From assembly GCA_025617375.2 (NCBI GenBank), contig JAMYGW020000002.1:2666001-2730000 (forward strand): DNA of 64,000 nucleotides. The letters are read 5' to 3'. Position 1 is the stretch's first letter; every line of letters begins with the position of its first letter. Made by a program: the position numbers and the translations under genes. Shown here in pieces: positions 10,951 to 43,746 of the stretch. The notes below the pieces were generated by a model. It did not search any database and had not been told where the DNA came from. It saw only the letters and a program-made list of their open reading frames with translations. Source of the stretch: Acarospora socialis. Lineage: Eukaryota; Ascomycota; Lecanoromycetes; Acarosporales; Acarosporaceae.

Positions 10951-12074
10951 ATGTCAGCAGAAGGGGCTTCTAAGTGGTCTTCCTTTCGGAAGCAACAGCT
11001 TCTATTGGAGTAGTAAGAAGGCTCTCCAACCCTTTGCAGGGTTGAGTGTTGCTAACAGTGGCTGTCCTGCGCCAGTGCAAGCTTAAAACATACCTGTCCC
11101 TCTGGAGTCTATTTGAGCCTGACGCCCGGGAACCCAAGTCTATGGGCTGGGGTTCTCTTCGTGCGCAACGGTACACAAAGGGCTCTCACGGTAGTGGCTA
11201 AGGTTTGAATCCATGCTAAGATCTCAATGGCAATCTAGGGCCTTATGCCCCGGCGATCCTGCGTTTCCAGATATCTTTCCCGTCCACTTACCCAGACTTA
11301 CCACCAGTCATCACCTTCACAACAGATATCTTTCACCCATTGCTCACGCCTCTGACCACATACACCTACACGACCGGATCTTCAGACAGTGATCCTGTCA
11401 GCGCCACAGACGAAGAACGTCTGCCACCAGGAGGCTTCAGCCTTCGACATGGCTTTCCGCACTGGTTCCAGCGCGCGAAACGGAGCGCCGCCAATTCGGG
11501 AACCTCATCACGGAATGTTAGCGGTTCCCAAGGGAGTCAAGACGAGCAGGCGGGGCCAAGATTTGGAATGGCGAACTCAACCCTTTCGATGCTTGGACCG
11601 TCTTCCCGTGTTGGGCAGCCATCAGCGGACCGCTCACTTTTGACTGGTGCCATCATAGGAGGGGGCCGAAGAAACGTCACTATCGTCGAGGTCTTGCACT
11701 ATATCCGCTCTGCTTTTACCGATCATACGGCGTTGGACTCTGTTCCGCTCGAAGCAGCAGGCAACCCAGGGGCATGGCATGCGTGGCGTGCGCATCGTCG
11801 GCGGTATCAGCAGCTTTCGCCTTCGCCATCACTTCTTGAGGTCTCCGACTTGCGGGTCGGTGATGGCACTAGTGCAGCGGTTCCGCGGTCAGATCAGCGA
11901 ACCACTAGAACTCCCTCAGACGGTGTTGCTAGGCAACCTGGCGAGTGGAATTGGGAAGGAGTATGGGAGGAGAGAGTCAGGCGAGGGGTAGAAGCTAGCC
12001 AAAGTGAAGCGGTCTTGTATGGGCACGCTTCAAGTAGGGACGACTTAGTAAGGCTTCTCTCTGGTACATGGTGA
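10951..12074 (+). CDS. E2 (UBC)-fold protein lacking the catalytic cysteine
   Basis: Three exons (10951-11012, 11076-11170, 11239-12074) give a 330-residue protein. The N-terminal part reads as a ubiquitin-conjugating fold: QQLLLEYASLK, a strand GVYLSLTPGNPSLWAGVLF, then the conserved PY..AI-RF-I-FP--YPDLPP block and FHPLLTPLTT where active E2s have HPN. The single cysteine in the protein is in HTCPSG, well before the active-site position, so no thioester cysteine exists. This is like UEV/AKTIP (FTS)-type E2 variants, which act as scaffolds. The C-terminal half is Ser/Arg-rich and includes a motif around LEAAGNPGAWHAW. I infer a non-catalytic role; the partner is unknown. The start ATG is the only one that leads into the E2 fold. 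Confidence 0.82.
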
Positions 12075-30149: not shown

Positions 30150-32696
30150 TCAAGATGTATAAGATATTTTCGTCCTCCCTCGAAACTTATTCCTGTCGAG
30201 GAATCGCCGAGGCTGCCGTTCTGTCCATTCCTCATCCTTACCCTCCAAGAAGTCAACCAGTGAGTTCACCTTCTTCGTGTTGCATTCGCCTCCGAGCATT
30301 GCCCAGAGTTCCTTCTCTTCTTTGTCAACCTTGAAATTGAATCGTATCTTAATACCGAGGCGATTCGCAGGATCGTCCTCACGAAGACTGGTAGCACACG
30401 CGTTGGAATGGCGTAAACCATCTGGGGCCAAGTCGCACTGAATAAAGACAGTCTCGAAGTCAGCTTCCTCGGGCACAAGCAATTGTACGCCTCGGAAGTA
30501 GACTCTGCCCATCTCAGTCCCGTTATTCATCCGAGCGCATGGAAAGGTGCTGCCGAGGCGAAGCCTCCTCTTAAGTTCACCATTCTTCCAGCTAGTCCCG
30601 AGACGGCTATCGTGGGTTGGTACCACAAGCTCGTCTCCCGGATATCTCCGCTTTAAGTCATCTGCTGGGGTCAACTTTCCTTGAAGGGCTTCTAGTTCAT
30701 GGACGATCTGGATGAGCCATTCGGCTCCTTCTACTGACGCCAGCAGTCGTTCAATCGGTTTCCGGTATACGATGTGGTCGTCAATACGAAGGTTGACCTC
30801 ATGGGGAGAGAAATGAACCGTCGGGTCCTTTGCCAGCCCTAGGATCCGCTTTGCCACCTTGTTACCAAGGTGGAATCGTAACAGATTGTGACGCGAAGGC
30901 GCAATAAGCTTAACCACTCCAGACCCAAGTACAACGACCGTTCTTCCATGGAAAAGAGTTGGGCCAGAAATCTGGTCATCGTCTGCCTCATTTTCAGCTT
31001 CAGAAGAAGCTTCTCCGTCACTATAACCTTCGTACTGATCATCGATCGGTATGGGAATATCAACTTCATCTATGGACGGGCGATGACCAGGAACTGGTTG
31101 GAAAGCTTGATTGTCGCCAGCGTCCTTGTCGCTGTTAGCCCAAATAGTCGTTGAAGTCACCTCGTCCGCCTCCCCAGGAACTGATTGAAAAGCTTGATCG
31201 TCGCCAGTGTCCTTGTCGCTGTTAGTCCAAATAGTTGTTGAAGTCACCTCATCCACCTCCCCAGAAACTGGTTGAAAAGCTTGATCGTCGCCAGCGTCCT
31301 TGTTGCTGTTAGCCCAAATAGTTGTTGAAGTCACCTCATCCGCCTCCCCAGGAACTGGTTGGAAAGCTTGATTGTCGCCAGCGTCCTTGTCGCTGTTAGC
31401 CCAAATAGTCGTTGAAGTCACCTCATCCGCCTCCCCAGGAACTGGTTGGAAAGCTTGATTGTCGCCAGCGTCCTTGTCGCTGTTAGCCCAAATAGTCGTT
31501 GAAGTCACCTCGTCCGCCTCCTGTTGATATTTATCGTCGGCAGATGTAGGAGCCTTGGTGTCTCGCTGGGCCTTCCGATGCCGACCCCTGAGGCCTCGAT
31601 TCTTTGGAGGGCCTGGAATCAGCATTTTGCTGCTATTTGCCGCGGTCGAGTTCTTCTTTGAACGTCTCTGGCGAGAAGTGCTTATCTTTCTGCCGATCTT
31701 CCTGACGGCCGCGCCGGCGAGGGAATCTCCTCTCGAAAGAACAGCAACCGGATCCTCCCGCAAGTATCTGCCGGCCCAGCACCGAAAACAAGGTGCATAT
31801 TCTGCCAGATGCAGCAGTCTCTGTTCTTCGCGCTCCTTCTTGACATAAGCATACATCTCAGAAAGTGGTGCAGCCTTTCTGGAACGGGGACGGCGTTGAG
31901 AGTATGCTCGACAGAAGAAATCAGTGTCGTACTTCCTGCCTGTCAACCATAGAAAAAAGTTGATGTCTGCGTCAATCTGGGCAGCCATTCCAGGCTTGCA
32001 CATTGCGTTAGAGAAGAACCCAGAACTTGGGTGGTGAACGTGGAGAATCATGCGACGCAATATACCGCGCCTGAAATCGAGGTCCAGTTTCAAAACACCA
32101 GTGGGCGGTACGATCGTAATTTCTAAGCGTTTGGTGGCTTTGCTGAGGTTTCTGCAAAGATTTTCTCGGGTGCAGCTGGATCCAGTGATAAGGAACGGCA
32201 ATGGTAAAATTTCCAGAATATCAGTGGACACTTTATCATGGAGAGCTCTGAGATCTCGGCTCCATCACATCGCAGGGCAGGTGGTCCTGCCATGGAATGT
32301 TTCTTCTGCTCGCCAATGCCAGTCATATCCGAAACTGAACTCGTCGCTGATTCCCTTCTCTTCGAGTAATCTGATTGTCGCACTTCAAGGGTCCCAGAAA
32401 TTACCAATAGCATCTTCCTCACTCTGGAGATGCAAGATAATCCCTAGGTCGGCATCCTCAGGCCCTCCTGGGCTAGCAAGCCTGTCGCGGCCTTGGCCAG
32501 AAACCTGCACTTCGGTCGAATAAAATTTCTCGAGCCTCTCCGTGAGCTGTTGATGTAATTGCTCTTTGGTGTCGCTCCAGCCGGTTTTCGGGGCCATTAA
32601 AAACTCGAGTAACTGGGCGAGCTCGTCTTGGGACAGGCTCCTTGTTGCCTCCTGAGCAAATCGGCTGGCAATCCAGGGTCCAGACAAATCATCCAT
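30150..32696 (-). pseudogene. Long unknown gene with two in-frame TGA codons and 87-bp repeats
   Basis: From ATG 32696 (MDDLSGPWIASRF) one frame runs to 30150, about 848 codons, interrupted only by TGA at 32385-32387 and at 32265-32267. Reading across both gives natural protein sequence (NFWDP, stop, SATIRLLEEKGISDEFSFGY; then TFHGRTTCPAM, stop, WSRDLRALHDKVSTDILEIL). Both TGA codons could come from CGA (Arg) by one C-to-T change. No intron that removes either stop and keeps frame was found. The centre holds five 29-residue repeats (core EVTSTTIWANSDKDAGDNQA). A basic Ser/Arg/Lys block precedes them. No known domain is recognised. It may be a recent pseudogene, since the rest of the frame is intact. 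Confidence 0.6.
31088..31522 (-). repeat. Five tandem 87-bp coding repeats (minisatellite)
   Basis: Copies begin at about 31088, 31174, 31261, 31348 and 31435. The period is 87 bp (29 codons), so copy-number change keeps the frame. Copies differ by a few bases, for example TGATTG versus TGATCG and GTAGTC versus GTTGTT types. The repeats lie inside the pseudogene described above. Confidence 0.88.
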
Positions 32697-35959: not shown

Positions 35960-36873
35960 GGCAGTGGTCTCTTAGCTAGAGGGAGATGTATCGCAATACA
36001 AACGCGATCGAGACCGAGGTTCAAGGTTTGAAGCCTCTGGTCGCACAGGTAGGTGTGGTAGTGGGCACAGATTGCGGGAGGTCGATGACATGCTCCGGAA
36101 TCGGTGCCAAGATGACAGGAAAATGGGGTGAGCGCCGCCCTACCGTCGCGCGACGCGGGTGACCATCGCGCGAGCCTGGGTGATGCGGGGGACCGAATTC
36201 TCCAGCCTGCATACTATTTTTTGCACTAGAAGACAAAAGCAGTATTTATACTAGAATCCCTGTAAATATGTTGATACCAAGGTCCAGGAAATTCGTGGTC
36301 TTGATATCAGCGGATGGTGTTTGCCTATTCCTGAATACAGCCAGCCTTGGGTGGACAATCGAAATGCTGGTTATTCTTTCATTTACCGCTTCCATAGGTA
36401 TTACATCCAAAAACACTAATGGTATGAGTCAATGAATCAACGATGGTCCGGGTGAGGGAGCTATCGGTTTTGGGGCTTTAGGGTTATTTGACTTATTTAT
36501 AAGAGGGTCAAGAACAGCGGACTATTGGTGTATAAGTAAGTCTTATTTGATAATATGTGTTGAACACACCGATCTCATAAAGGGAACGTGTGTTCTAATG
36601 TTATATATACTATGGTATGAGCTCACCGAGCTCAGAGGCCCGCTCGGCCTGAAAAAGACGTCGGAGCGAAGCTCAAGAAAAATTTCCGTGAGAGCGACCT
36701 GCAACATATGCCCAACGAGTACAATCAAGATTGTATACGGTGCAATAAATGCGTTATTTGTATTTTTTAAAAGATACTTATCATTATAGTCGTGAAGGCA
36801 TCAAATTCCCTCTGGGATCGCCGTTCCACCCAATTAAGAAAGAAAACCTTGATCAGCAACGCCCCAGAGAGCG
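35960..36873. other. Intergenic, with a GC-rich segment
   Basis: This holds the RAD14 promoter and the 3' side of the E2/U-box gene. A GC-rich block at 36128-36190 contains the 18-mer GTGAGCGCCGCCCTACCG (36128-36145), found again at 43451-43468 on the other side of the next gene. The 36470-36840 part is AT-rich with no gene. Confidence 0.55.
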
Positions 36874-39800
36874 TTATTTATCCTGCAATATTTCTTGTCT
36901 CCATTGCTCTCTGGACTTTGTGGCATGTTTCTTGATGTGCTTCTTCACCTCCTCTGAAAATGCTACTTCATCCCAGTGAAAGTCTAGGGCAACAATGGTG
37001 TTGCTTCGTCATATCTTGTTAGTCACCTCATCTAGCTCAGCCATACACCATCGAATTTGATGAACTTACACTGGGTCGCTGAATTCCGGTACCAAAAACA
37101 ACGAGTAGATCGTGTTCAAAACCTGCGAGTTTGTCGTATCCATAGTCCAGTTTCCTGTTGTACGGCAGCCGTTACACCACTTCTTCAGAGTTTGGCAGAC
37201 GAGAGACTCACTATCCAGAATACTATGACATATCCGCCCATGCCGGTTGATGTTTGGATGGAACGTGGGCGTCAAGAACCTACCTTTGGGAGGAAATGCA
37301 GGGTATCCATCCTCCATGTCCAAGTAGAGAACAAATACGCCCTCGGAATAATAGTTATTCGGAGGCTACCGTATGTTAGCACCTTCTGTAACTCGTCATG
37401 ATATTGAGATTTAGCACGTACTCCCTGCATTACAATCTTCCAGAACCCAATGTTGGATTCAGAGACATAGACGTCATAATGAGGGTGAACATTTGCCGCC
37501 ATATTCCTAATCTGTAATGATGTCAGCATCAACAACAACGATCCACGATTGCACAGTCAGCGCTAGAACCTACCTCCAAGAGTAGACGCGTGGATCGCAC
37601 GCTAGAATTTGTCCGCATTTCGGGTACAGCGGTCGAAGCGGACGAGATATCTTTGCCCGGTCCATTTGCTCGAGCCACGGCTGAGACTTGGACAAATGAA
37701 TCTTGCAGGTTAGGATGTTGCCTCCGCTGTGGGAAGATGTCTCGGGTGACAATATCCGGTTCCTAGGTTGCGATTAGTACTAGATTTCAAATAGCAAGCG
37801 TGAGACTGAAAGCTGGTCACGTACTGCATAGAAACTTGGAATACAAGATTGCAATCCGCTGCCGATTAGTATTTCGTCGTTGCCTAAGCAGAAGAGTACT
37901 TACGAGGTCGAATGTTTGTGTGCAACTTCTTGTCTTGGAGCTCTTTCCAGTTGGTTGAGGACGGGCTCCATCTCACAGATTGACATTGCTTGTTCAAGTG
38001 TGTTAGGGACAAACTTGTAGCCACCAGAGCTGTTACTTAATCAGCAAAGCTTACTGAGTTGGACCTCAGAGCCATTGGGACGCACAGATATGAAATTTTA
38101 CGAAGATCTTCATTATCCTCGTCGCCTATGCAAAATGAATCCAAGATTACTTTGCCTTCCTGTCTGCACGTTAGCACTGCGCAGATATACAATACCAGAT
38201 GTATAAATGCTACTCACGCTCAGGATTCTTGATATATCGTCACTACGTTTGAGAGACTTGGTATCGGCCCCATCGGAGAGGCAAATGATTCGCTTCTTTG
38301 CATGCGGAAACTTCTGAGAATACTGCAACAGCTGATCATTTGCTAGGGCAATTGCATCCCACAATGCAGTGTCGCCATTCGGTTCCATCTGATTGACAGC
38401 ATCTCGAAACTTTTCGATGACGTGGGTGAGCGGTTGAGAAACTTTCGGAGTGGATTCAAAGGTGACGAGGCCTGCAGGGGCATGAGCGTAAGACTTGAGG
38501 GAATGTTTGGCAGAGTTCTTACCAACATGGGTCGAGTAATCATAGGCAAGAGTTCTGTTAATGTAAGCCTCGAATATCTGTTTGCAAACATCCAGCTACG
38601 TATCATGTGTTAGTCAAACGTATAGATGGTGGACAAATCAGTTCTTCACCCTGGAAAGACCCCGTCTACCCCTTTTCTCGTCCCGATCTCGGTCTCCTTT
38701 AGATTATGTGGGTTCATCAATACTTTTAGAACCAAAGGGCCCGTTCCCGAAGGCTCAGTTGACGTGCCACACAAAGTCTCCTCGCCAAGGCTTCCCTTGG
38801 CATATAATGGAGTGAAGAAGTTGGATAAATGTTCCCAATGCTGCTGAGCATGGCCAACCCGTAATCCATCGCCCGAGTCGCGTAGGCGGGTCCAGACTTC
38901 CATGTCATGCGCCTTCCAGGACCGTTGATGCTCTCGATTAAACCTCCAATACCGGAACACTATCGAAATTAAAGATTTGGGGGTATTTCTGGGAACCCAA
39001 TACGAGAATTGAGCGCAGTTATAACCGTCGTACACTTTGACAAGGCACATGTCGTTGACCAATATGCCTTTATTTTTGGTCGACGAAGCTTCCGAGGAGT
39101 TATCGCAGATGTTGATATGAATCACTGCGCCGTCCACAATATTCTTCGATTGAATAGTGTCTCGGGATATTTCCAGTGCACTGCCATTGTAATATAGACC
39201 AAAGTGTGCGTGCGATCCTCTAAGTCCTTGGAAAGAAAGCCTATAGAGGTCTGCAATTGAGAGCGAGGGAGCAACTTTTCGTGTAAAGGTGCTCAGGCGA
39301 CTAAAGAATTGAATATTCATCTTCAGGTCCTGAGTAGAACTCGAACGCAGTTTCTTCGGCGATCGGGTGGAAGCTCCAGTAATTGCTTCCCCATTAATCC
39401 ACTCTCTGACTTCGATCATCAATTGCCGATTGTGTCTCAGAGTAGTGTGCGGAAGATTCAGTCCGGTGCAGGGCGACGACTTGCGAATTTGAAACCATCT
39501 CTGAATGGCCCTTCTTTCGTATGTGATGTGATCACCGGCGACAACGGGATCTAACGTTAAGATCAATGGGTATACTAAGACAAGTTATCTTATTTTAAGG
39601 AACTCTAACCTTCAAACACCTCGTGGCTGATGGGGCAGACAAACGCCTAATCGAAGAATAATTAGCCATGAAATCGGTAATCTTGTGGCAGCATCATACA
39701 CGTGGAATCAACAGGGTCTCCACCAGACCCTGAGAGGCAGACTCCCCCAGACTGGGACATTTCGGAATTGCTTCACCAATATTCCATGTCCACGCTTTAT

Positions 39801-42800
39801 TTTCAGCAGTAGAAAGTCCAGCACTGAAGTTGAGAAAATCACTAAGTGCCTTCTTGTGAGTATCAAGTCCCGCAATCTGCCTTTTCAGCATTGAAATCTG
39901 GGGTTGTTGCGAAATACATCGCTCCGAGTACAGACGCGTTGTAGCCCATCTCTTCAAGGATTGCAACTCGCTTACATGATGCGAAAGCTCCCGCGAATAT
40001 AAGGTGCTGAGGTGCTGCAAGACACTAGAAACAAGTGCGGGCCTTTGATTGGCGTGTGCGCTTCGAATGATTGCAAGGATATCTTCGAAACACTCATGAT
40101 TCGAAACGTATCCTAGTAGATCATACCACCTTTTATCAGCTTCATTCCCATGTATATTATAAATGCCACTGACCTTTAATATCGTCGAGGGAAACCTCTA
40201 AGAATCCATCCATGTCGCCGAAGGGATCATCCACAGTGAGTGATTCTTCGCATTTGTCTTGATCGGTTTCATCAATTTCTGCCTTCTTGTGTTCCTCGAA
40301 ATCGGACGACCTCTTCATACTTTGACTGCAATCTACACAGAACATGATAATCTCATCAGGATTTTTCTCCCTCCGCTGCTGGACTGCACCAAATGAGTCA
40401 AACACAATGGTACCGTCGTCCTCGCGTTGCTGAAGTATAGGTGCGAGGAGCTGGCTTATGATTGCCACATCAACGGTTTCTTCACCGTACTGCGTCGGAC
40501 GGAAAATGGTGATGTCCTTGCCAGGTACGGCGCACGGAGCTCGACCGACATAGACAGCGAGAAGGCCATTCCTGTCCAAAGTGAGAGCAGGCACACTTGA
40601 TGAGGGTAGGGCTAGAGGTGCCGCTACTGTGAGTCCATTCCGCTCACAAAGAGCTGCTAGTGAGGAGAGGTCGCAGAATTTATAAGATTCAACCAACGAC
40701 TCCAGATCTCTCGTGTGTTTGGGCTGGCAAAGAGAGTTCAGGCAGTCAAACTCGAAGTAAATGATCTCTGAACATATACCTCCACTTTGCAATGCCAAGC
40801 GTCGTATTTGACCGTCAATGGTTCTTGCTACTGACGGTTGCTGACCACCGGACCAGCTCAATATTCCGTCTTCTCGACAAGCGTTGTAGTACCCTTCTTC
40901 GCTCAACCCATAATCGGTTTGGATCGGATAGGTTATTGGCTCCTGTGTTTCCGGATCCCTCAAATCCAAAGTCTTGAATGACCGTAGGTACGGAAGTGTT
41001 TCAGCTGAGCCTTTCAGATGCCTAGCTTTTTCCAAGAGGAGTCCGAAGAACAGCCGGGATGCTTCGAAGAGCCTGCTCATGTCATTTCGAATGACTCCCG
41101 GAGGAATTATGTCCTTAATGATTTCGAACACTGCCATGGCAAGGGCAGCGCATTCGGAAGCACGGGGACACTTGCTCTCCATGAGTATGTAAACCGCTCT
41201 GAAAGCAGGCGGAAAGCGAGTCATCGTATGCACAAGACAAAGAACCATGTTTTGGGTTGGCTCGTCCATTTTCTTTGCATTGATGAGATCCGTGAAGATC
41301 CAAAGGGAGGACAGAAATGCCGCCTTACCCCGCTCTGATTGACGGACAGGATGTTCCTAAATGAAAAAATTAGATAAGTTGTTGATGCAGAATGGACAAG
41401 GTTTCGACGAACCCAAGACTCAGCTGCCATGAAAATCCCTTCTTTTGCTGGCGCCCTTGGCCGGTCGTTAGTAGAACAACTCCTCTCCACTACGTAGATG
41501 TTGAGGATCCCTTCGATTGCACAATCTGTCAATCCAAGTTGATTGATCGTGAGGTCCAAGTCTGCAGTCTCGATAGGAGCCTCCGAGGTATGAAGGTCGA
41601 GAACTTTTCCAAGTTGAGCATCGGGCTCAGCTCGTGACCTCGATTCTGGCTCGAAAGTGTGGCGCTGGCGCGAACATATTGAAATAATGGGCAGTCTGAA
41701 CTGTGAGGAATATCCTTCGACATCACGGATGAAATTGATGGCCTTAGTCTGCTCTATATGCTGCCCAAATCTGTCCTGAATGCTGACCAATATCAAGGCT
41801 CTCTCGGCAAGAGCGGAGCTCAAGCATTCAACTTGACTCTTCCCAAACACGACGAGAAACTTACATGGCGCTCGCTCAGAGGGAGTAGAATTGGATTCAA
41901 CCCCTGATGGTGGTACTATACACATTATCAAATGTTATCAAGAGATGTAGACAAGACCACAGCACGTGAACACGGCACCACTTCAGACTTACAAGAATTG
42001 CAGCTCTCTGGACACGTCCATTCATTTCCCAGCCTCATGCAATTACTATGTAGCAAATGCTTGCATGGCGAGTCGGTGCGAAGAAAGACCTTGGCGGCAC
42101 AACGAAACACACCATCATCTGGTGCATTCCCAATGGCCTGACGATCTGATATAGACTTGGAGCATACTGCGCAAGGGTGGGATGATAATATTGAATGATG
42201 ATCCAGGGAAAATTCACAAGGTCCTGTTCCAACGTCTGGCCTTTGTGAGCTGTTGTGACCATGGCAGTCCAACTTCGTCCAAATACCACGTCTGTGAACA
42301 CGCCGCGCCAAGGCACAATTGCATTCCTGACATTCATGCTCTTGATGTTGACCATTCAACGACAGGCCAAGTAGATCAGCAATCTGGACCTTGATCTCGC
42401 GAAGAGTTGTACTGCCATCGATCCTTTTCCCATTGTGGAGTAGTGGCATCGAACTCATGGCCCGGTTAGCTCGAGCGAGAGATGGCGTAATGACCCTGAT
42501 TCTAATTCCTTCGTCATCCGTAGACGCTGACGTGTAAAGTGCCGCAGCCTTGCACATTTTCGAAGTTAGGCAATGTTTACTCTCCAAAGTAATTGAAGTG
42601 CCGTGAATGATTCTTACCAAGTTGATCTGCCTCTCTTCCTTCTCGCCACCATGGGCGCCCCGCCACGTAACAAAAATCCTTTCATCCTGGGGTTTGATGA
42701 TGACTTGACTGAGAATATCATCAACATCAAGGAGAGGCCCATTTTCTCGGCCAAGGCAAAGGAGTGGATCTTCCTGAGGCAGAGACGAGGTATGTTTGGT

Positions 42801-42920
42801 GGCACGACGACGAATCTCATCGACAAACAACGTCAGTTTCGACAAAGGTGAAAAAGGTATTAGCATCTGAAGTTTCGTTTCCGACCCCGGAGGAATGACT
42901 GTAACCGTGTACCTCTCCAT
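36874..42920 (-). CDS. Giant single-chain E2 + U-box protein with RING-like, vWA and UBL regions
   Basis: Sixteen exons, all phases consistent, give 1,724 residues. They are 41993-42920, 41398-41915, 40170-41356, 39700-40129, 39610-39646, 38661-39550, 38523-38595, 38218-38471, 38086-38159, 37904-38029, 37825-37858, 37574-37762, 37422-37511, 37212-37341, 37070-37154 and 36874-37003. Order by residue: a UBL-like segment (~170-200); a RING-like Cys/His cluster (~250-308, HPCAVCSKS to EWTCPESC); a vWA MIDAS motif (~820, FCVDCSQSM); a U-box (~1020-1090, FVCPISHEVFEDPVVAGDHI); a second UBL (~1120-1180); the remaining vWA elements (~1330-1440, LDVCKQIFEAYINR, DTALWDAIALAND, IICLSDGADTKS); and a UBC domain (~1580-1724, FPPKGRFLTPTFHPNINRHG with catalytic Cys in RICHSIL). 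E2 and E3 functions in one chain suggest self-contained ubiquitin transfer. Introns of 40 and 41 nt (40130-40169, 41357-41397) and the exon 6 donor are the least certain joins. Confidence 0.82.
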
Positions 42921-43746
42921 TGTGGTGTCCTTGCGAAGAATATTATGAAGAGATGAGACAATTTGAGATGAGCCAACGAAGTGAGGCTGCGTACACAGGC
43001 ACAGACAGGACGTAATTATTTAAATGGGTAATGGAGGCCTTATCTACTCATGGTATGGTATCCGGCGAAACAGTTGTTAGCGTTGATTTGTTTTGGCAAC
43101 AACCATGTTCTGGGTGTGCCTCCGTACGCAGCCTTGCCTCGTTGGCTCATCTGTCAACACCAGCTTGACTGGCAGCTTAGGTACCTTAGTGGCTGATACA
43201 GATGAAGAGCTTCCATCGCCAGCCTAATTCGTCACAACTGTCTAGAAAGTGTCCAAGACCTGAAATCTTAAACAGAATTGATGATATATTATTGTTTGTT
43301 TTTATATCTCGTCATACCGATATTCTTCTAAATAACTTAAGCAGGGCTGTGTGAGAAAGTGTGAAGACGCGCGTGCGCTTTTCTGAGTGAAAGGACGGGC
43401 ACAAAGTGTTCATCACCCCCCGATTACCTTACCCAGCTCGAGGGATTAGAGTGAGCGCCGCCCTACCGCCTACCCCCGCACGACACGGATCACCGTCGGG
43501 GCGCGACTGAGGCCTGCGCGGCACACATACGAGGGATAATTTCTACAACTACCGTACTAAATAGGCCCTTAGTGATGGCTTGACCTGAACAGCGTGGGGG
43601 CGAGGGGCTGCTGCCTGGTCCACGTCTTGTACATAGTAACTGACTATTGTAGCCCAGAGATCACTCTCAGTTCCTTATGTACCAACAATAATGCTCCCGT
43701 GACACTCTACCATCGGTGTTCAGGTGATTGACCCAGGGATAGCACG
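42921..43746. other. Intergenic, with second copy of the GC-rich segment
   Basis: This is the likely promoter of the E2/U-box gene (right side of that gene) and of the GST gene (+). The 18-mer GTGAGCGCCGCCCTACCG lies at 43451-43468, followed by about 30 bp that resemble 36146-36175 with mostly G/A and C/T differences. Confidence 0.55.

Follow-up and report, generated by a model that had tools for sequence, protein, structure and literature searches.

The question raised by this locus is whether an E2 and a U-box E3 are built into a single protein chain and, if they are, whether the two could work together. The DNA analyzed is a window of 64 kb from a fungal genome of 31.1 Mb in 38 contigs, and an earlier note on the same letters had proposed one spliced chain of sixteen exons that carries both. 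We find that the gene is very probably real and that its E2 and E3 parts are arranged in an unusual, nested way.

The gene model and its surroundings

Our splice model runs along the minus strand from an ATG at 42920 to a stop codon ending at 36874 (whole coding region 36874–42920), joining 16 exons into a frame of 1,717 residues. All 16 exons are free of internal stops in the chosen frame, which closes on its terminal stop; exons 1, 3, and 6, the longest of the set, have 7 to 20 stops in each of the five alternative frames. All 15 introns have GT-AG borders and measure 45–77 nt, and a gene built with such short introns resembles those of filamentous fungi. The model upholds the proposal of an E2 and a U-box in one sixteen-exon chain, with no internal stop and with Pfam matches above cut-off. 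It shortens the protein, previously given as 1,724 residues, and slightly shifts the borders of three introns whose joins had been flagged, all of which are present (41412–41357, 40173–40113, and 38669–38596).

A codon-preference measure trained on nine long open frames from other parts of the window puts the chosen frame at the top of the six in 9 of 16 exons (3, 6, 7, 8, 10, 12, 14, 15, and 16) and lower in the remaining seven, exon 1 among them, and for this reason lends the model weak support. Automatic splice searches at single settings were dropped: a lightly penalized search called 24 introns and encroached on conserved parts, and searches with heavier penalties missed the beginning of the U-box in three of three settings and shifted the vWA frame in two of the three. 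The final model combines joins from both kinds of automatic search with domain homology, and because homology guided the joins, the domain homology depends in part on the model. Introns 2, 5, and 6 have poor donors (GTTCGT, GTTAGA, and GTAGAC, respectively) and intron 15 a poor acceptor (GAAG). Introns 7 and 14 each have a length divisible by three and contain no stop, so that their retention would leave the frame intact; we treat both as spliced out, since neither the vWA nor the E2 match calls for extra residues at those points. These weak splice sites and retainable introns alter few residues and leave the domain order as it is.

Several repeats lie around the gene. An exact 18-nt direct repeat flanks it (36128–36145 and 43451–43468, 7.3 kb apart); six copies occur in the genome at up to one mismatch, three of them exact, and a reversed control finds none. 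Flanks were compared for the copies on the strand of the locus (L044, L045, and L048), leaving out those on the other strand (L046, L047, and L049). Among the three compared, similarity stops after 18–27 nt, and we claim no mobile-element origin from this repeat. A 65–67-nt stretch around the first 18-nt copy recurs at two other places (86–87%). Just upstream of the start codon lies an imperfect inverted repeat (42966–43152) with 55-nt arms that are 78% complementary and 77 nt between them; in a genome search with 42921–43620, the only other matches were those of the arms with each other. Elsewhere in the window, an array of 87-nt direct repeats (31000–31608) falls within a 704-residue open frame on the minus strand (30150–32264) and therefore corresponds to a 29-residue protein repeat. 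Additionally, a UBC-like stretch on the plus strand (11220–12074, UQ_con E-value 5.8e-6 over profile positions 40–75, 284-residue open frame) is perhaps a non-catalytic E2 relative.

A U-box within a divided vWA domain

The profile matches expected by the earlier note are found for U-box, UQ_con, and VWA, each above the Pfam cut-off, and fall short for RING. Exon 1 (41993–42920, residues 1–309) is a long open frame whose end encodes a RING-like Cys/His cluster (residues 250–307, 42000–42173) with the spacing C-x2-C-x31-C-x-H-x2-H-x2-C-x9-C-x3-C, in which the last Cys pair is spaced 3 rather than 2. The best Pfam RING model, zf-RING_11, reaches E = 0.0052 and 16.9 bits against a cut-off of 27. 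None of 5,000 shuffles of the protein reproduced the Cys/His pattern, which had been loosened to fit the cluster by allowing a last pair spaced 2 or 3. The cluster reported previously is thus present, and its assignment to a RING profile is not borne out. Nor do we find support for the two ubiquitin-like stretches described alongside it: at residues about 152–185, PF00240 reaches only E = 0.16–0.21 and 11.8–12.2 bits (cut-off 25.4), and residues about 1095–1180 have no ubiquitin-family match.

The U-box is clear. PF04564 matches the full conceptual protein with an E-value of 3.9e-12 and 46.6 bits (cut-off 21.4), as the earlier reading led us to expect, and places the domain at residues 1007–1074 (39393–39708), which span the end of exon 4, exon 5, and the start of exon 6, with introns 4 and 5 inside it. 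Among solved structures it aligns with U-box domain-containing protein 12 (PDB 7xed_C, 1.3e-11). Of the positions that may contact an E2, the domain keeps the CPI motif and has Asn where U-box protein 12 has its second-loop Pro.

Both vWA profiles also exceed their cut-offs on the full protein, VWA_2 at residues 1317–1407 (2.1e-11, 44.8 bits) and VWA at residues 1327–1449 (6.6e-11, 43.2 bits). These matches start at profile position 22 or 28, so that the first strand and the DxSxS motif of the MIDAS are missing from them. The missing start is found 491 residues upstream, on the far side of the U-box, as DEIIMFCVDCSQSM (residues 811–824, exon 3, 40316–40357), with D819, S821, and S823 forming the motif. 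Between it and the remainder of the domain (residues 1316 to about 1490, exons 7–10, 37904–38595) lies an insertion of 491 residues (825–1315, 38670–40315, with introns 3–5 inside). When the halves are joined without the insertion, the score rises from 43.3 bits for the second half alone to 62.1 for VWA, a gain of 18.8 bits, and from 39.3 to 59.0 for VWA_2. The joined domain starts at profile position 2 (VWA) or 1 (VWA_2), and VWA covers positions 2–154 of 174. The second half with its natural preceding sequence shows no real gain (43.2 bits for VWA, 39.7 for VWA_2), and joins to nine other pieces of the same protein gave at most 46.9 (VWA) and 43.9 (VWA_2) in nine of nine cases. The join also completes the MIDAS set, since T1374 and D1406 are supplied by the second half.

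Scored apart from the rest, the first piece matches VWA_2 positions 1–24 with E = 0.1 and 13.7 bits, below the cut-off. It carries the sole DxSxS of the protein, placed after a hydrophobic stretch; this combination appears in 76 of 5,000 shuffles and is therefore weak by itself. Compared by sequence with solved structures, the joined domain has 27 weak matches at E up to 1, the best of them to complement C2 (E = 0.0073) in an alignment that spans the join. Against NCBIfam it matches several VWA-bearing families, the best at 2.6e-7 and all far under the whole-protein cut-offs; the U-box and E2 pieces match no family in that library, which is built for prokaryotes. An exon-by-exon VWA search of the genome gave four matches, this gene not among them. 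A single-sequence AlphaFold2 prediction of residues 1085–1305 had a mean pLDDT of 33, too low for use.

From these sequence comparisons we conclude that the U-box sits inside the vWA domain, after the MIDAS motif. The von Willebrand A elements described earlier are accordingly the two halves of a single vWA domain, one on either side of the U-box, a division that the earlier note had missed: the profile matches stand, and the division is added here. In itself the divided vWA is instructive, as an example of a domain that interrupts the binding-site loop of a different one.

Searched in its own genome with residues 804–1478, the gene finds only itself (six of six matches) and is a single copy. 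Viral contigs scanned with residues 811–1480 gave no match, prokaryote genomes scanned with residues 1–872 gave 24 pattern matches of which none was confirmed, and phages searched with the U-box yielded nothing. None of these collections covers fungi, so the absence of relatives from them says little; a fungal gene would be expected to give this outcome. Many fungi may well carry unnamed members of the family.

The E2 domain and the possible route of ubiquitin

At the C-terminus, UQ_con (PF00179) matches residues 1562–1697 (36937–37585; end of exon 12 and exons 13–16) with an E-value of 7.6e-28 and 97.3 bits against a cut-off of 27. An alignment to yeast E2 13 (Ubc13; 6zhs_B) at 2e-20 extends over 124 query residues and covers the HPN motif, the catalytic Cys, and the C-terminal part; HPN (residues 1631–1633) and Cys1641 are both kept. 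The lack of a significant UBC or U-box profile match had been named in advance as the result that would speak against a fused E2 and E3; both profiles exceed their Pfam cut-offs, and the UBC domain with its HPN and catalytic Cys stands as described. Where the loop of yeast E2 13 reads SPA, the residues here are TMD, so that the usual residues of the E3-facing loop are absent. The SPA loop of an E2 faces the E3, and some active E2s lack it. An exon-by-exon UQ_con search of the genome returned 34 matches, the gene's own included, and the nearest of the other E2 loci compared (63.5 bits, 35% identity) is not close.

The poor splice sites noted above, together with the other joins chosen by automatic searches at other settings, leave room for the view that two or three neighboring genes have been misread as one, for example a RING-like gene, a U-box gene, and a vWA-E2 gene. 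We consider this highly improbable. The vWA domain needs exon 3 as well as exons 7–10, with the U-box exons between, and since it needs sequence on both flanks of the U-box, both flanks belong to one protein; judged by profile scores, nothing speaks more strongly than the divided vWA for a single protein across exons 3 to 10. The Pfam match to the E2 starts in exon 12 and crosses the join to exon 13. The chain is unbroken by stops, with exons 1 and 2 tied to it less tightly. It is also improbable that the gene is a decaying or inactive relic with recognizable domains and no remaining ubiquitin conjugation. Such decay could be read into the GC content of the gene (46–49% in 2-kb steps, lower than most of the window), into a codon preference that favors the chosen frame in only 9 of 16 exons, and into the substitutions in the E2 and U-box loops, but 1,717 codons without an internal stop and the retention of HPN, Cys1641, and all five MIDAS residues argue against such decay.

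The same loop substitutions, TMD for SPA in the E2 and Asn for Pro in the U-box, also speak for a reading in which the protein is one multidomain chain whose E2 and U-box are not partners. The U-box would then recruit free cellular E2s, which the other UQ_con matches indicate are available, and the C-terminal E2 would act alone or as a regulatory module. The E2 of UBE2O probably acts on its own, and a UBE2O-like gene occurs in the same genome. Against this, a single shared chain would seem needless if the U-box and the E2 never meet. We regard the non-partner reading as somewhat unlikely.

On balance we lean towards the reading that the product of the gene is a hybrid E2/E3 ubiquitin ligase, in which the vWA domain would pick targets and the U-box would activate the tethered E2. 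The E1 of the cell would charge Cys1641 with ubiquitin. The vWA domain would bind a target at its metal site, or sense a ligand there; acidic residues on ligand proteins are known to be bound by some MIDAS sites (PMC10539598). The U-box, presumably lying at the same face as the MIDAS, would then position the tethered E2~ubiquitin towards the bound target or towards the protein itself, and the RING-like N-terminal region might serve as a second E2-facing or oligomerizing element. Internal transfer of ubiquitin is plausible. The changes from SPA to TMD in the E2 and from Pro to Asn in the U-box loop count against simple in-chain activation, and the E2 may have evolved to suit the U-box of its own chain, or it may work alone.

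A bolder version of the hybrid-ligase reading, which we put forward as an unlikely conjecture, takes the U-box to be inserted in the MIDAS loop of the vWA domain in such a way that a target or metal bound at the MIDAS would shift the U-box and thereby gate discharge of the tethered E2, making a ligand-gated, self-contained ligase that would need only E1 and ubiquitin. Because the surfaces of an E2 that contact E1 and E3 overlap, its meetings with an E3 are usually brief. A natural chain of E2 and U-box, with the U-box nested in a recognition domain, would let the alternation of charging and transfer in cis be probed directly. If the hybrid reading is true, the protein would unite a compact ligase and its receptor in one chain, perhaps one that chooses and tags its own targets.

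Comparison with known systems

Multidomain E2s offer the nearest precedent. In the passages cited, UBE2O is termed a hybrid E2/E3 (PMC12635394), and UBE2O and BIRC6 are counted among the multidomain E2s (PMC11354881). Both resemble the protein described here in being large multidomain proteins with a UBC domain. We know of no U-box or vWA domain in either. With the full protein as query, the Pfam families listed up to E = 1 do not include SH3-B_UBE2O, which sets the protein apart from the UBE2O type, and the UBE2O-like gene of the same genome (L016, G000 C2:1833806; UQ_con 1.2e-17, SH3-B_UBE2O 6.9e-6) is distinct from it. Fungal PARPs of clade 6A (PARP-UBCc) are described in the passage cited as multidomain proteins with a C-terminal UBCc that keeps its active Cys (PMC2964712); they share with the present gene a fungal, multidomain layout with a C-terminal UBC, whereas the partner domain is PARP instead of U-box and vWA. 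A second locus in this genome (L033, G000 C2:1893277; PARP 3.2e-9, UQ_con 7.4e-7) seems to be such a PARP-E2 gene. With L016 and L033, multidomain E2s are evidently no rarity in this fungus.

The pairing of U-box and vWA also has precedents. In the choanoflagellate Monosiga, the U-box protein Mb_UBOXa also has a VWA domain (PMC3087547), and the U-box proteins of Chlamydomonas (CrPUBs) include VWA among their added domains (PMC4378952). Both pair the two domains as here, and the passages cited mention neither an E2 nor a U-box nested in the VWA. Plant RGLG proteins are RING domain ligases (PMC12647413). They resemble the present protein in joining a vWA domain to an E2-recruiting finger, and differ in that the finger is a RING rather than a U-box, no E2 is known to be attached, and the finger is not nested. 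The RGLG layout combines the two in one ligase, with the RING finger outside the vWA domain. A survey of ubiquitin systems across eukaryotes discusses architectural rearrangement in general terms (PMC4327156).

Among the matches listed from open-access literature, none names a protein that combines U-box, vWA, and E2, and to our knowledge no described ligase has a U-box nested in a vWA domain. To call the locus an undescribed system, as the earlier note did, is nonetheless too strong, given the hybrid E2/E3 UBE2O, the two other E2 fusions in the same genome, and the U-box and VWA proteins of Monosiga and Chlamydomonas. As far as sequence can indicate, the parts are of known kinds, their arrangement is unusual, and the vWA domain split by a U-box is what appears to be new here.
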